A stretch of DNA of 64,000 nt from Actinomycetota bacterium (lineage in GTDB: Bacteria > Actinomycetota > Coriobacteriia > Anaerosomatales > Anaerosomataceae), in assembly GCA_004348925.1 (NCBI GenBank), contig RCMX01000001.1, positions 73,138 to 137,137 of the forward strand. The letters are read 5' to 3'. Of the stretch, positions 3,782 to 54,372 are shown one piece after another; positions within the stretch are counted from its first letter, which is position 1; each line of letters starts with the position of its first letter. Both the position numbers and the translations under genes were made by a program. The notes under the pieces are model-generated. The model was not told where the DNA came from and did no database searches. It saw nothing but the letters and a program-made list of their open reading frames with translations.

Positions 3782-3895
3782 GCCGCAGTTCACAGCGGCG
3801 TTCGATTCTTTGTGTCCTTGCGGTGAAATGCCTTGTCAGCGCCGGTTTCGGTGGCTAGTCTTGAGCGGCTGCAAATCCACCGTAGAAACGCGAGG

Positions 3896-4948
3896 ATGCC
3901 CGTGCGCATCGGCTTCATGGTCAACGACATCGCGACAGAAGAGGCGGGGTACACCACCACGCGCCTGGCGGTCGCCGCTATCAACCGCGGTCATGAGGCG
4001 TGGGTCATGTCCGCCGGTGACTTCGCTTACGACCCTGATGAGAAGATCAAGGCGCGCGCCCGTCACGCGCCCGGTCGGAAGTACGCCTCCGGCTCGGCGT
4101 ACCTTGCCGGCCTACGCGGTCCGAAGGCTCGCGTGGAACGCATCACCGTCGACGACCTCGATGTGCTCATGCTGCGCAGCAATCCCGCCGAGGAGGTCGG
4201 CGCGCGTCCGTGGGCGCAGAGCGCCGGAATCGAATTCGGCCGCATCGCGATGCGCAACGGGGTCATCGTGTTGAACGATCCGAACGGCCTGGCAAAGGCG
4301 ATGAACAAGATGTACTTCCAGCTCTTCCCCGAGGAGGTCCGTCCGCGCACGCTCATCACACGCGATCGCGACGAGATCAAGTCGTTCGTAAAGGAGCAGG
4401 ACGGCAGGGCGGTGCTCAAGCCGCTCCAGGGCTCCGGCGGCAGCGGTGTCTTCATGGTTGACCACGCATCCAACAAGAACCTCAACCAGATGGTGGAGGC
4501 GCTGACGCGTGACGGCTACGTCATCTGCCAGGAGTACCTTGAAGCCGCCGAGGAAGGCGACACGCGGCTGTTCATGATGAACGGGCAGCCGCTGCGCTAC
4601 AAAGGCAAGTACGCGGCGTTCCGGCGGGTGCGCCAGGGCGACGATATCCGCAGCAACGTGCACGCTGGAGGCACCATCGCGCAGGCGTGTATCTCGGAGG
4701 CGCATCTTCGTATCGCCGAGATCGTCAGGCCGAAGATCGTGGCAGACGGCATGTTCCTCGTCGGACTCGACATCGTCGGAAACAAGCTGATGGAGATCAA
4801 CGTCTTCTCACCTGGCGGCCTTGGCAGCGCCCAGAAGTTCGAGAAAGTGAACTTCGCCAACGGCGTGCTTGACGCGCTCGAACGCAAGGTGGAATACGCG
4901 GTGCACTACCGCCGCAACTTCAGCAACATTCAGATGGCGACGCTGTAG
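3896..4948 (+). CDS. Glutathione-synthetase/RimK-like ATP-grasp ligase
   Basis: ATP-dependent carboxylate-amine ligase, 350 residues from the ATG at 3896. A GTG at 3902 fits the GAGG ribosome site better and may be the true start. The N-terminal pre-ATP-grasp domain (RIGFMVNDI, then DVLMLRSNPAEE) resembles glutathione synthetase. The ATP-grasp body shows AVLKPLQGSGGSGVFMV (glycine-rich loop), ICQEYLEAAEEGDTRL, LRRVRQ-type basic residues, and GLDIVGNKLMEINVFSPGG with metal-binding E and N. The last motif is close to GshB. No gamma-glutamylcysteine ligase is in the window and the upstream neighbour is an FGase-like hydrolase. A peptide-like or glutamate-tailed product is as likely as glutathione. 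Confidence 0.85.
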   Translation: MPVRIGFMVNDIATEEAGYTTTRLAVAAINRGHEAWVMSAGDFAYDPDEKIKARARHAPGRKYASGSAYLAGLRGPKARVERITVDDLDVLMLRSNPAEEVGARPWAQSAGIEFGRIAMRNGVIVLNDPNGLAKAMNKMYFQLFPEEVRPRTLITRDRDEIKSFVKEQDGRAVLKPLQGSGGSGVFMVDHASNKNLNQMVEALTRDGYVICQEYLEAAEEGDTRLFMMNGQPLRYKGKYAAFRRVRQGDDIRSNVHAGGTIAQACISEAHLRIAEIVRPKIVADGMFLVGLDIVGNKLMEINVFSPGGLGSAQKFEKVNFANGVLDALERKVEYAVHYRRNFSNIQMATL

Positions 4949-50014: not shown

Positions 50015-51061
50015 TCAGCGGCCGCGAACCACGATGCCTCCGCCCACGACGGCATCGTCCCGGTACAGCACGACGGACTGCCCCGGTGCGACCGGAGCCG
50101 AATCGCGGTCGAACTCCACCGTGATCTCGCCACGGCCGTACACGGCTCTCGAGGGGATCGTCGCGGTGCGGTACCGCGTTTGCGCCTGAACGACGGCGCC
50201 TGCCTCGCTCAGGTGCCAGACAGGATCGCCGAGGCGCACGCTGCGTATGACGGTGGCCGTGCTCGGCTCGATGACCACGGTGTTCGTCCCGGGTTCAAGT
50301 GCGACGACCCGGTGCGGCGCGATGCCGCCGATCCCAAGGCCGCGTCGCTGTCCGACCGTGTAGTACGCGAGTCCCCTGTGCATGCCCAGTACGGCGCCGT
50401 CTGCGGTGGTGATCGGACCGGGCATGAACAGCTGCGGGTGAGACGAGCGCAGGATGGCCTCGCGCTCGGCCGAGAAACAGAGGTCCTGGCTGTCCTGACG
50501 GGAGGCGACCGCCAGTCCAAGCGACTGAGCGATTCCACGCACCTCGTGCTTCTCGAGGTTGCCGAGCGGGAAGACCGCACGCCGGAGCATTTCCTGTCGC
50601 ACCCGATACAGGAAGTACGACTGGTCCTTCTCGGCATCGCGGCCCCGCGACAACAACGGGCCGGTCTCACCGTCCGCAATACGCACGTAGTGGCCCGTCG
50701 CGAGCAGCTCGATGCCGAGTCTGCGCACGCCGTCGACGAGCGCACCGAACTTCACGTGTTCGTTGCACCACACGCACGGGTTCGGAGTCGTCCCGGCCGC
50801 GAGTGCGGTGCCGTACGGCTCAAGCACGGCCGAGGCGAACTCCTCGGACATATCGAGGACGACATGGCGGATGTCGAGCGCGTCGCAGACACGGCGAGCA
50901 TCGAGCGCGTCCTGCTCGCCACAGCATGCCCGCCCGGCTGCCTCGGCCAGCCCCAGGCGCATCGTCACGCCAACCACGTCGTAGCCGTCCTCAAGAAGCA
51001 GGGCCGCTGCCACCGAGGAGTCGACGCCGCCGCTCATGCCGACCGCGATCATCGTACTCAT
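50015..51061 (-). CDS. mnmA: tRNA-specific 2-thiouridylase
   Basis: Makes 2-thiouridine at position 34 of tRNA-Lys, tRNA-Glu and tRNA-Gln, using a persulfide donor. It is 348 residues. The PP-loop is S10-G-G-V-D-S-S16 (ATP adenylation). Catalytic Cys are C96 in NPCVWCN and C195 in DSQDLCF. GHYVRI, KDQSYFLY and TVGQRRGLGIGG are also typical. The start overlaps the metW stop by 4 nt (ATGA), placing this tRNA sulfuration gene at the end of the met operon. Confidence 0.96.
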   Translation of the reverse strand: MSTMIAVGMSGGVDSSVAAALLLEDGYDVVGVTMRLGLAEAAGRACCGEQDALDARRVCDALDIRHVVLDMSEEFASAVLEPYGTALAAGTTPNPCVWCNEHVKFGALVDGVRRLGIELLATGHYVRIADGETGPLLSRGRDAEKDQSYFLYRVRQEMLRRAVFPLGNLEKHEVRGIAQSLGLAVASRQDSQDLCFSAEREAILRSSHPQLFMPGPITTADGAVLGMHRGLAYYTVGQRRGLGIGGIAPHRVVALEPGTNTVVIEPSTATVIRSVRLGDPVWHLSEAGAVVQAQTRYRTATIPSRAVYGRGEITVEFDRDSAPVAPGQSVVLYRDDAVVGGGIVVRGR

Positions 51062-51708
51062 GCGTCCGTGTCGCCGCCGTCTGTGGTGCCGGTGGCCGAG
51101 GTGACGATGGCGACGGCGAGCTCGGCGCGCAGGTTGGCGCCGACGTGCACGGCGTGCACGCCATCGGTCCGGGTGTTCGAAGCGAGGGCAATCTCCTTGA
51201 GCACGACTCCGCCGTTTGCGGTGACGAACTCACGGAAGTCCTTCAGTGTCGTGTGGTGGATGTTCGGCGTGTCGAACCAGCTGTACGGGATGGTCCTCGA
51301 GACCGGCATGCGACCGCGCAGTGCGAGATACCCCCGCACTCGCCAATGCCCGAAATTCGGGAACGACAGCACGGCACGCTCGCCGACCCGAAGCATCTCC
51401 CTCAGCACGAGCGCGGGGTTGCGGACTACCTGGAGGGTCTGCGACAGAATCACAAGGTCGAAGGATCGGCTCGGGAATCCCGCCAGGCCGCAATCCAGGT
51501 CGTCCTGCACGACGGAGAGTCCGCGGGAGATCGACTGGGCGATGCCCGCGGCCGTGAGTTCCACGCCTCGAACACGGCACCCGCGTTCGTCGCGCAGATA
51601 CGCGAGCAGGTCACCGCCTCCGCAGCCGAGGTCAAGGACCCGGCTCCCTTCGGGGACCAGCTCGCCCACGAAACGCAGATCGGACCGCAGGAGGTGGGCA
51701 GCCGTCAT
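51058..51708 (-). CDS. metW: MetW methyltransferase-fold protein
   Basis: A 216-residue class I methyltransferase-fold protein almost always found beside metX. It reads RVLDLGCGGGDLLAYLRDERGCRVRGVELTAAGI, DDLDCGLAGFPSRSFDLVILSQTLQ and VRNPALVLREMLRVGERAVLSFPNFGHWRVR, then YSWFDTPNIHHTTLKDF. In some proteobacteria MetW is needed for full homoserine acyltransferase activity. It overlaps both neighbours by 4 nt (ATGA), consistent with a tight metX-metW-mnmA unit. Confidence 0.93.
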   Translation of the reverse strand: MTAAHLLRSDLRFVGELVPEGSRVLDLGCGGGDLLAYLRDERGCRVRGVELTAAGIAQSISRGLSVVQDDLDCGLAGFPSRSFDLVILSQTLQVVRNPALVLREMLRVGERAVLSFPNFGHWRVRGYLALRGRMPVSRTIPYSWFDTPNIHHTTLKDFREFVTANGGVVLKEIALASNTRTDGVHAVHVGANLRAELAVAIVTSATGTTDGGDTDA

Positions 51709-52838
51709 GATGCAACGCCCTCGGCCGCGTAGACACTGCTCAGGAACGGTTCGATGAACCGCGCCTGTTCCACCGGCTCGAGCAGGAATGCATCATGCCC
51801 GTACGGGCTCTCTATCTCGGCGAACGAGACTTCGGCACCCACCGCCTTGAGCGCGTCTACGAGCTCGCGCGACTGATACGTGGGGAAGAGCCAGTCACTC
51901 GAGAATGAGAGCACCAGGAACCGCGCGTCGATTCCGTCGACTGCGCCGGCCAGGCTCGGGAAGCCCGTGCTCAGATCGAAGTAGTCCATCGCTTTGGTCA
52001 TGTAGAGGTACGTGTTCGCATCGAAGCGCTCGACGAACTTGCGCCCCTGATACGCCAGGTAGCTCTCGACCTCGAACTCCGTCACGAACTCGAACGCGTG
52101 CTCTTCGCGCTCGCGGAGCCTTCGTCCGAATTTCGCGCGCATCGAATCGTCCGACAGGTACGTGATGTGTCCGATCATCCGGGCGATCGCGAGCCCGTGA
52201 CGGGGCTGTCCTTCGTCGTAGTAGTCACCGCCGCGGAACGAGGGGTCGCCGAGAATCGCGGTCCGTCCCACCTCGTTGAATGCGATAGCCTGTGCTCCGA
52301 GACGCCATGTGGTCGCGATCGCGAGCACGCTTGCGCATCGCCCGGGATACCGCCGCGCGAATGCGAGTGCCTGCATGCCTCCCATCGAGCCGCCGACCAC
52401 TGCAAGCAGCCGGTCTATTCCCAGCGAATCAAGAAGGGCCGCATGGACATCGGCCATATCCTCGATCGTCACGAGCGGGAACCGCAGTCCGTACGGTCTG
52501 CCGGTCGCAGGATCCTCGGAGCCGGGGCCGGTCGTGCCGGAGCAGCCGCCGAGCACGTTTGCACACACCACGAAATACCTGTCGGTGTCGACCGCTCGAC
52601 CCGGGCCGACCAGGTCGCTCCACCAGCCATCCCTCGGCTGGCCGGTCGCGTCGGGCCCGTCGGCGACATGCGAGTCGCCGGAAAGCGCGTGGCATACCAG
52701 AATCGCATTGGCCTTCTCGGCATCGAGCGCACCGAACGTCTCGTACGCGACCTCGATGGTCGTGAGTGTCTGACCTGATGTGAGGGTGTGGCCCCCGGGG
52801 AGCAGCAAACTCCCCGGGGTCGCCACTGTCTGCTTCAT
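51705..52838 (-). CDS. metX: Homoserine O-acetyltransferase
   Basis: Acetylates homoserine using acetyl-CoA, the first committed step of the trans-sulfuration-free methionine route. It has 377 residues and an alpha/beta-hydrolase fold. The nucleophile is S151 in VVGGSMGGMQAL, the acid lies in SSDWLFPTYQSRELVDAL and the His in PYGHDAFLLE. HALSGDSHVADG and the VCANVLGGCSGTTGP oxyanion region are family blocks. Some family members use succinyl-CoA, so the acyl donor is inferred. It begins 2 nt after the metY stop. Confidence 0.95.
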   Translation of the reverse strand: MKQTVATPGSLLLPGGHTLTSGQTLTTIEVAYETFGALDAEKANAILVCHALSGDSHVADGPDATGQPRDGWWSDLVGPGRAVDTDRYFVVCANVLGGCSGTTGPGSEDPATGRPYGLRFPLVTIEDMADVHAALLDSLGIDRLLAVVGGSMGGMQALAFARRYPGRCASVLAIATTWRLGAQAIAFNEVGRTAILGDPSFRGGDYYDEGQPRHGLAIARMIGHITYLSDDSMRAKFGRRLREREEHAFEFVTEFEVESYLAYQGRKFVERFDANTYLYMTKAMDYFDLSTGFPSLAGAVDGIDARFLVLSFSSDWLFPTYQSRELVDALKAVGAEVSFAEIESPYGHDAFLLEPVEQARFIEPFLSSVYAAEGVAS

Positions 52839-52840
52839 AG

Positions 52841-54142
52841 CTACGCCTGTCCGAGCGCCTGCTCAAGGTCCTCGATGATATCCTCGATCGCCTCGATGCC
52901 GACAGAGAGTCGTACGAAGTCCGGACCGATGCCCGCGCGGTCCAGCTCCTCGTCGTTGAGCTGCGAGTGCGTTGTCGACGCCGGGTGGATGATGAGGGAC
53001 TTCGCGTCACCCACGTTAGCCAGATGCGAGAAGAGCTTGACGTTCTCGATCAGGGTGCGACCCGCGTCCTGCCCGCCCTTCACTCCGAAGACCACGACAC
53101 CGCCGTACAACCCGTGGGACAGGAAGGTGTCGGCGTTCGCTTTCGTAGGATGATCATCCAGACCCGGATACGTGACCCAGGCGACCTTCGGATGAGCCTG
53201 AAGGTACTTCGCAACGGCCAGGGCGTTCGTGCTGTGACGCTCGACTCGCAGAGACAGCGTCTCTATGCCGAGGAGGATCTGCTGGGCGTTGAACGGCGAG
53301 ATCGAAGCGCCAAGATCCCGGAGCAGCTGGACCCGCAGCCGAATGGCGAAGGCGACATTGCCCAGGCCCGGGAAGTCACCGAACACCTCCCAGAACTTGA
53401 GCCCGTGGTACGACGCGTCGGGATCGGTGAACTGGGGGAAGCGGCCTCCGCTCCAGTCGAAGTTGCCGCCGTCGATGATCGCGCCGCCAAGGGACGTTCC
53501 GTGGCCTCCGATCCACTTCGTCAGCGATTCGACCACGATCGCTGCGCCATGCTGGATCGGTCGGCACAGAAACGGCGTCGCGAACGTGTTATCCACCACG
53601 AGCGGCACGCCGAGCGACCGACCGGCGTCAGAGAGCGCCTGGATGTTCGGGACGTCCAGACGCGGATTTCCGATGGTCTCTACGAACCATGCTTTCGTCG
53701 TGTCATCAGTGGCTGCCACGAACCCCTGTACGTCCGTCGGCTCGACGAACCGCACCGAGATGCCCAGGCGCTTGAAGGTGTGCAGGAAGATGTTCCACGT
53801 ACCGCCGTAGAGCGAGGTCGAAGCGATGATCGAGTCTCCAGAACCCGCGAGGTTGAGGAGCGCGAGGTTCTCGGCAGCATGACCGGATGCCACCGCGACT
53901 GCGGCCGTGCCGCCATGGAGTGCCGCCAGGCGCTGCTCGAGCACATCGGTGGTGGGGTTCATGATGCGCGAGTAGATGTTCCCGAATGCGCGCAGACCGA
54001 AGAGATCCGCGGCGTGGTCGGTGTCCTTGAAGTTGTACGCGACCGTCTGGTAGATCGGGACAGCGCGCGAGCCCGTGGTGGGATCCGGGGATGCGCCGCC
54101 GTGTACGGCGACGGTGTCGAAACGGGGTGCCGATGCGCTCAT
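52841..54142 (-). CDS. metY: O-acetylhomoserine sulfhydrylase
   Basis: PLP enzyme converting O-acetylhomoserine and sulfide to homocysteine. It is 433 residues, the usual length for MetY-type Cys/Met-metabolism enzymes. The PLP lysine is K209 in VVESLTKWIGGHG. YSRIMNPTTDVLEQRLAALHGG and VDNTFATPFLCRP are canonical. The N-terminus (RFDTVAVHGGASPDPTTGSRAVPIYQTVAYNFKD) and LNDEELDRAGIGPDFVRLSVGIE also fit. GAAGGGAAC lies 7 nt before the ATG. It is the first structural gene after a methionine-rich leader peptide. Confidence 0.95.
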   Translation of the reverse strand: MSASAPRFDTVAVHGGASPDPTTGSRAVPIYQTVAYNFKDTDHAADLFGLRAFGNIYSRIMNPTTDVLEQRLAALHGGTAAVAVASGHAAENLALLNLAGSGDSIIASTSLYGGTWNIFLHTFKRLGISVRFVEPTDVQGFVAATDDTTKAWFVETIGNPRLDVPNIQALSDAGRSLGVPLVVDNTFATPFLCRPIQHGAAIVVESLTKWIGGHGTSLGGAIIDGGNFDWSGGRFPQFTDPDASYHGLKFWEVFGDFPGLGNVAFAIRLRVQLLRDLGASISPFNAQQILLGIETLSLRVERHSTNALAVAKYLQAHPKVAWVTYPGLDDHPTKANADTFLSHGLYGGVVVFGVKGGQDAGRTLIENVKLFSHLANVGDAKSLIIHPASTTHSQLNDEELDRAGIGPDFVRLSVGIEAIEDIIEDLEQALGQA

Positions 54143-54179
54143 GGTAGGTTCCCTTCGTGTTCGTGTGTGATGGATGATA

Positions 54180-54257
54180 CCCGCGACGACCTAACGGTGC
54201 GCGGGAAGCGGAAGCCGCCCGGAGTCAGCGCATGCGCGCAAAGACCCGGGCCGGGTC
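54180..54257 (-). promoter_or_regulatory. Candidate attenuator hairpins between leader peptide Met codons and metY
   Basis: Two inverted repeats lie in the predicted leader RNA. GACCC...GGGTC (54243-54257) directly follows the second Met triplet. CCCGCG...CGCGGG (54180-54205) has an inner ACC/GGT pairing and holds the leader stop codon near its loop. A competing pairing between the CCCGG near 54250 and the CCGGG near 54220 is also possible. There is no T run, so control may be translational or Rho-dependent rather than by a classical terminator. Confidence 0.45.
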
Positions 54258-54298
54258 ATCATCATGTCCATCATCATCACAAACACGTACGGTACCAT
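54191..54298 (-). CDS. Methionine-rich leader peptide of the metYXW-mnmA operon
   Basis: A 35-residue open frame starting MVPYVFVMMMDMMMTRPG. Seven of its first 14 codons are ATG, in two runs of three split by one Asp. It is preceded by a perfect AGGAGGTGA ribosome site, although the spacing to the ATG is long (an in-frame GTG starts 5 codons earlier). It ends 48 nt before metY. The codons match the end product of the operon, as in ribosome-mediated attenuation. Ribosomes short of Met-tRNA would stall there and change the folding of the downstream hairpins. No other use for such a peptide is apparent. Confidence 0.75.
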   Translation of the reverse strand: MVPYVFVMMMDMMMTRPGSLRACADSGRLPLPAHR

Positions 54299-54343
54299 GG
54301 TGCTTCGGTTCACCTCCTCGGGGCATCCGGAATGGTTCGAACG

Positions 54344-54372
54344 AAGGTACAGCGCGCGGCGTGCGTCGTCCA
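54344..54372 (-). promoter_or_regulatory. Possible promoter of the met leader
   Basis: Read on the minus strand, TGGACG (54372-54367) and TACCTT (54349-54344) are 17 nt apart, a moderate match to -35/-10 boxes. A start near 54337 would give a leader of about 195 nt that includes the whole Met-rich peptide. The upstream MFS gene ends 33 nt before. Confidence 0.4.

Follow-up and report, generated by a model that had tools for sequence, protein, structure and literature searches.

The regulators best known from methionine operons are SAM riboswitches, T-boxes and repressors, and the sensing of Met codons by the ribosome has, to our knowledge, barely been described. SAM riboswitches and T-boxes serve the same pathway and purpose as the element considered here, but they sense SAM or uncharged tRNA directly and do so without a leader gene. 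The attenuators of trp, his and leu operons use a short leader rich in codons for the product of the pathway, which is followed by hairpins. In Actinobacteria, the LEU element located before leuA carries a run of Leu codons that pairs with the leuA Shine-Dalgarno (SD) sequence, and no conserved RNA element was found before methionine operons in the 2005 survey of Actinobacteria by Seliverstov et al. (PMC1262725). In erm-type translational attenuators, described in general terms in PMC11264731, ribosome stalling within the leader gene changes the hairpins and frees the downstream start. A Met-dependent leader, metL, has been predicted before metNIQ in Streptomyces lividans and lacks an intrinsic terminator (PMC8079986). 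Within the literature covered, mostly outside subscription journals, this weak prediction was the only Met leader peptide encountered.

The locus described here lies in a 64,000-nucleotide stretch of a Coriobacteriia genome (the window); records from the same order and family are labelled Anaerosomatales. All features of the window given below are on the minus strand. The first gene of the downstream operon, metY (52841..54142), encodes a PLP enzyme of Cys/Met metabolism (Pfam PF01053, E=5e-125) and is followed by a metX-like acyltransferase gene of the alpha/beta hydrolase type (51705..52838, PF00561), by metW (51058..51708, PF07021, E=6e-69) and by mnmA, coding for a tRNA 2-thiouridylase (50015..51061, PF03054). 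In relatives, metX adjoins metY and metW adjoins metX; the flanks examined showed no mnmA behind metW, and the operon there consists of metY-metX-metW. Thus mnmA is possibly co-transcribed with these three genes only here. At two related loci, L037 and L038, a PALP-family gene takes the place of mnmA after metW, and a PALP gene also follows mnmA in the window.

Upstream of metY, a leader gene of 35 codons (54191..54298, ATG at 54298 and TAG at 54193-54191) encodes MVPYVFVMMMDMMMTRPGSLRACADSGRLPLPAHR. Seven of its first 14 codons are ATG, and two Met triplets (54277-54269 and 54265-54257), separated by GAC, make up the run ATGATGATGGACATGATGATG (54257..54277). The Met-run pattern ATGATGATGNNNATGATGATG, with up to two mismatches allowed, has a single match in the window, where shuffled sequences lead one to expect 0.01. 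As read from the sequence, the leader has its own, strong SD, GAGGAGGTG (54311..54319), 14 nt before the ATG. This gap is longer than usual and measures 13–16 nt in relatives, 36 of 37 of which have the core GGAGGTG. A conserved CGAG is present between the leader SD and ATG (window 54319-54298) and pairs with the first codons of metY in the long helix described below. A promoter-like sequence, TGGACG (54372-54367) and TACCTT (54349-54344) with 17 nt between them, spans 54344..54372; it was not reported by a consensus scan, and in many relatives TGGAC or TTGACC followed after about 17 nt by TANNNT can be recognized by eye at the same place. The initial annotation had described a Met-rich leader with its own SD ahead of metY-metX-metW-mnmA, which the seven ATG codons, the GGAGGTG sequence and the Pfam gene calls bear out. 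The position given there for the leader also holds, but the element as a whole extends further than had been assumed, from about 54372 to 54130, and takes in the metY start.

The leader is found in frame before metY at every intact Anaerosomatales metY locus examined, comprising 37 distinct loci from 12 families. A close metY is present in 35 of 69 genomes examined from the order, and in one of these (G036) the gene lacks its 5' end. A near version of the Met run was found at 34 sites in these 69 genomes, just upstream of metY matches, while a reversed control pattern gave no match in the same 69 genomes and the order genomes without a close metY contained no site of the Met-run pattern. The initial annotation had named a lack of the Met codons in related genomes as a ground for refutation, and the outcome favors the leader: all 37 loci carry four to six of them in frame, and the other codons drift, including those for residues 2-7. 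The distance from the leader ATG to the run is 18, 21, 24 or 30 nt, a multiple of three in 37/37 relatives, and the frame is kept at all 37 loci even though the SD spacing shows single-base shifts and the metY-side tail differs in length between relatives. Judged from this frame conservation, the leader is probably translated. The third and the last Met of the run are invariant, lost Met residues are replaced by A, T, V, L, Q or other residues, and the Asp within the run varies to E, A, G or R. More divergent runs are MSHAALVMMRGMMTQPGSIGARAGSGRL in G041, MMMELM in G054 and VMAMAMDMVMT in a second copy in G044. One genome, G026, possesses two metY-metX-metW copies (L037 3866-4001 and L021 3865-4001), each with a leader and the long helix, whose MetY proteins are 93% and 78% identical to that of the window.

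Outside the order, a search of 329 other Coriobacteriia did not recover the Met-run pattern before metY and gave six weak matches only, and a generic form of the pattern gave scattered matches in 149 Actinomycetota genomes; these class- and phylum-level pattern searches are blind to leaders with a different run. No convincing Met leader was seen at metY loci of other phyla. A more distant Coriobacteriia metY-metX-metW locus, L039, also has no Met leader. At L039, repeats of CGACATCTACCAT with CATC motifs lie before metY (3880-3925), possibly an unrelated or an ancestral element.

The main structure of the element, absent from the initial annotation, is a long closing helix between the leader and metY, here termed P0. 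Its 5' strand (54254..54308) comprises the region before the leader start, the ATG, codons 2-7 and the Met run, and its 3' strand (54130..54179) consists of an anti-Met tail, TATCATCCATCAC, followed by the metY SD region, the ATG and the first codons. In the window, 54308-54254 is an imperfect inverted repeat of 54179-54130 with about 40 pairs, and 35-45 pairs are formed in all relatives. The leader ATG stands opposite the metY ATG in 35/37, a start-to-start pairing aided by the palindromic CATG. In the free RNA, the partner of the Met run is the tail, for the most part 21-47 nt ahead of the metY ATG, and the SD and ATG of metY lie opposite other portions of the leader. Tails before metY contain 43 copies of CATC, the complement of GATG, against 6.9 expected, and eight of ATCATC against 0.4.

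Support for P0 comes from swap tests, in which the duplex energy of cognate strands or arms is compared with that of strands exchanged between species, with permutations. Cognate P0 strands pair at -45.7 kcal/mol, compared with -34.8 kcal/mol when swapped between species, and P0 is better than all 150 dinucleotide shuffles for 34 of the 37 sequences. The region around the leader start and that around the metY start co-vary by themselves (-20.5 versus -15.8, 0/5000 permutations as good), as do codons 2-8 with the tail (0/5000) and, weakly, the Met run with the tail (1/5000), whereas control strand combinations showed no co-variation in the same test. These permutations ignore the tree, and the safeguard lies in the negative controls and in family-level draws: with one sequence per family, ten random draws from the 12 families gave a median p of 0.0000. 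In addition, the 211-nt leader of the window folds at -101.4 kcal/mol, against -75.6 kcal/mol for shuffled sequences (z -5.8, 0/200 as good). RNAalifold on the full MAFFT alignment was of little help, given the variable lengths of hairpin 2 and the tail, though its outer pairs hinted at P0. The structure of P0 is thus well supported, and from it we infer that regulation is exerted through this helix.

P0 encloses two hairpins. Hairpin 1, formed by arms 1 and 2 (1:2; 54217..54251, GCCCGGGTC...GACTCCGGGC), begins a fixed 5 nt past the last Met codon; hairpin 2, formed by arms 3 and 4 (3:4; 54180..54205, CCCGCG/CGCGGG), holds the leader stop codon in its loop. Both hairpins can be recognized in nearly all relatives. 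In swap tests, cognate arms were favored for the inner part of hairpin 1 (-9.7 versus -6.9 kcal/mol, 0/5000 permutations) and for hairpin 2 (-16.6 versus -13.5 kcal/mol, 0/5000). Column-wise pair shuffle statistics showed no excess covariation for hairpin 1, because its outer stem hardly varies and its inner helix shifts register, and column-wise counting of pairs was replaced by the swap tests. In one relative, at locus L106 (1215-1378), the leader frame already ends within hairpin 1 (MKAFADVMMQMGMMMTRPGS), and the stretch preceding metY is extended and carries additional repeats (GTGCCAA). The codons ACC-CNG-CCC-GGG-TCT that follow the Met run (window 54256-54242) are near-invariant at their wobble positions, exceeding what hairpin pairing needs. 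Together with the outer stem of hairpin 1, the codons ACC-CNG-CCC-GGG are conserved beyond the needs of pairing or coding, and this excess conservation is not fully accounted for by an attenuator model.

The arrangement of a Met-rich leader followed by hairpins had been taken initially for the layout of trp- and leu-type attenuation. Under such a mechanism, arm 1 would be covered by a ribosome stalling on the Met codons, which would leave arm 2 to pair with arm 3 and keep the 3:4 terminator from forming. The Met codons do lie directly ahead of arm 1, arm 2 is able to pair with arm 3 in many relatives, and masking the run together with arm 1 lowers the mean probability of 3:4 from 0.77 to 0.52 across relatives, a partial effect seen in some of them. 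However, of the alternative hairpins proposed at first, only 1:2 and 3:4 stand up. The 2:3 pairing shows no co-variation (3331/5000 permutations as good), and 3:4 persists at a probability of 0.97 when arm 1 is masked in the window's own sequence. Moreover, the leader stop lies inside 3:4 and not before arm 2, so that a ribosome finishing the leader would break the supposed terminator, and classical attenuation leaves P0 unexplained. Nor does a U-run follow hairpin 54205-54180, as the initial annotation had already noticed; TATCATCCATC comes next, and a consensus terminator scan found none after hairpin 2 on this strand. Classical transcription attenuation therefore appears unlikely. Three scanned stretches that cover most of the window likewise showed no enrichment of U-run terminators, which is in keeping with the second kind of output that had been suggested, by way of Rho. 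In that case, translation of the leader, or stalling on it, would determine Rho loading, either onto the C-rich and G-poor sequence preceding metY or onto metY itself, left untranslated after closure of P0. Rho is encoded in the genome, the tail before metY averages 35% C and 16% G in relatives, and Mycobacterium Cys leaders before cys operons have been proposed, weakly, to act in this way (PMC1262725). Yet the C-rich stretch spans no more than about 28 nt, pairing with the Met codons accounts for its composition as well, and loss of the message to Rho could follow from translational control instead of being a mechanism of its own. We consider Rho-dependent control improbable; a translational output, also suggested at first, fits the structure of P0.

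Two further explanations place the sensor elsewhere. The leader peptide, MMMDMMMTxPGS, might arrest the ribosome as a nascent chain in response to SAM or Met, as happens in plant cystathionine gamma-synthase, and MMMDMMMT-x-PG is indeed well conserved as a peptide. Against this, x varies between Q, R, W and P with its wobble G fixed, S varies to F, A or P, and synonymous change is rare in the Pro and Gly codons, which points to a constraint at the level of the RNA and not of the peptide. The variation of the Asp within the run also argues against a role for the peptide as such, and nascent-peptide arrest seems very unlikely. Conservation at the RNA level could alternatively reflect direct binding of SAM, Met or a precursor by a riboswitch-like RNA at the junction of P0, hairpin 1 and hairpin 2, with the reading frame being secondary. 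Sequence conservation around this junction is very strong (GATGACCCNGCCCGGG and CCGGGC). No Rfam family, SAM riboswitches and T-boxes included, matched here at the gathering threshold, however, and a lax Rfam search (E up to 10) gave only weak chance matches of snoRNA and sRNA type. The coding signature of the leader side, found in 37/37 with the Met codons retained in frame, likewise speaks against direct ligand binding, which we regard as less probable still.

We consider it probable that the element is a methionine-sensing translational attenuator of metY-metX-metW. How leader translation could act on metY was addressed by calculating the cost of opening the metY ribosome-binding site and ATG with ribosomes placed on the leader. 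This cost is 14.5 kcal/mol in free RNA and remains at 14.2 kcal/mol with a ribosome at the leader stop and at 13.9 kcal/mol with one ribosome late in the Met run (P-site codon 13). It is 10.4 kcal/mol with a ribosome stalled at the first Met of the run (P-site codon 7), 5.9 kcal/mol with a stalled and a queued ribosome, and 5.0 kcal/mol with a ribosome on the leader start, and in silico the probability that the metY AUG is unpaired rises from 0.08 in free RNA to 0.54 once a ribosome occupies the start of the leader. By these calculated costs, metY is therefore freed when a ribosome covers the start of the leader. Opening of metY through blockage of the Met run alone was rejected by the same calculation, as a single ribosome stalled in the run barely opens metY in the model, and the mechanism consequently needs a queued ribosome or co-transcriptional kinetics. 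Stalling at the Met codons would keep ribosomes queued over the leader start, since the second Met triplet and the leader ATG are roughly a ribosome length apart.

The proposed translational attenuator would work as follows. The leader would be transcribed and translated before the metY start is made, and timing would matter. When charged Met-tRNA is plentiful, the ribosome would clear the Met codons, hairpins 1 and 2 would re-form and P0 would close, concealing the start of the leader as well as that of metY, and Rho may then remove the message left untranslated. Under a shortage of charged Met-tRNA, a ribosome would come to a halt on the Met codons, up against hairpin 1, which may serve as a brake at this position, and the next ribosome would queue over the leader start. 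With the leader strand occupied, P0 would be unable to close, the metY start would stay free and the operon would be translated. More tentatively, we hypothesize that the leader gene may be both the sensor and the antisense strand of metY, forming a start-to-start, self-locking methionine attenuator in which the time that ribosomes queue at the Met codons decides, during RNA synthesis, whether both starts are locked or open.

Compared with the described systems, the element is a variant of ribosome-mediated translational attenuation and belongs neither to the LEU element nor to the classical attenuators. As in the LEU element, a codon run joins a base stem that reaches the region of the downstream translation start, and no terminator is needed. 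However, the codons are Met and not Leu codons, the run pairs with the tail before metY and not with the SD box, and a much longer helix extends as far as the pairing of start codon with start codon. With the trp, his and leu attenuators it shares the short leader rich in product codons and the hairpins behind it, in contrast to which there is here no U-run terminator, no supported switch between 2:3 and 3:4, and a stop codon placed inside hairpin 2. Among the features that define translational attenuators, the leader is located upstream of the controlled gene and, in silico, a leader-dependent structure conceals the downstream start. The logic proposed for stalling in the leader is that of the erm type, but the predicted signal is a shortage of an amino acid and not an antibiotic, and here the strand concealing the downstream start is provided by the leader gene itself. 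The S. lividans metL peptide, MSTTSDRTPATEATTTPGARCMCRRMCAF, differs in having two scattered internal Met residues and no run and in preceding a different gene, and no related sequence was seen.

The locus thus presents a Met-codon element that is conserved across the whole order Anaerosomatales and has an unusual start-to-start lock. Met starts every protein, which raises the question of how a sensor made of Met codons works when initiation itself needs Met. P0 shows how the gene of a leader peptide can serve as an antisense strand as well, and searches for alternative hairpins alone would miss such a helix. In the Anaerosomatales, which are little-studied bacteria of soil and the subsurface, ribosomes awaiting methionine probably switch the methionine pathway on.
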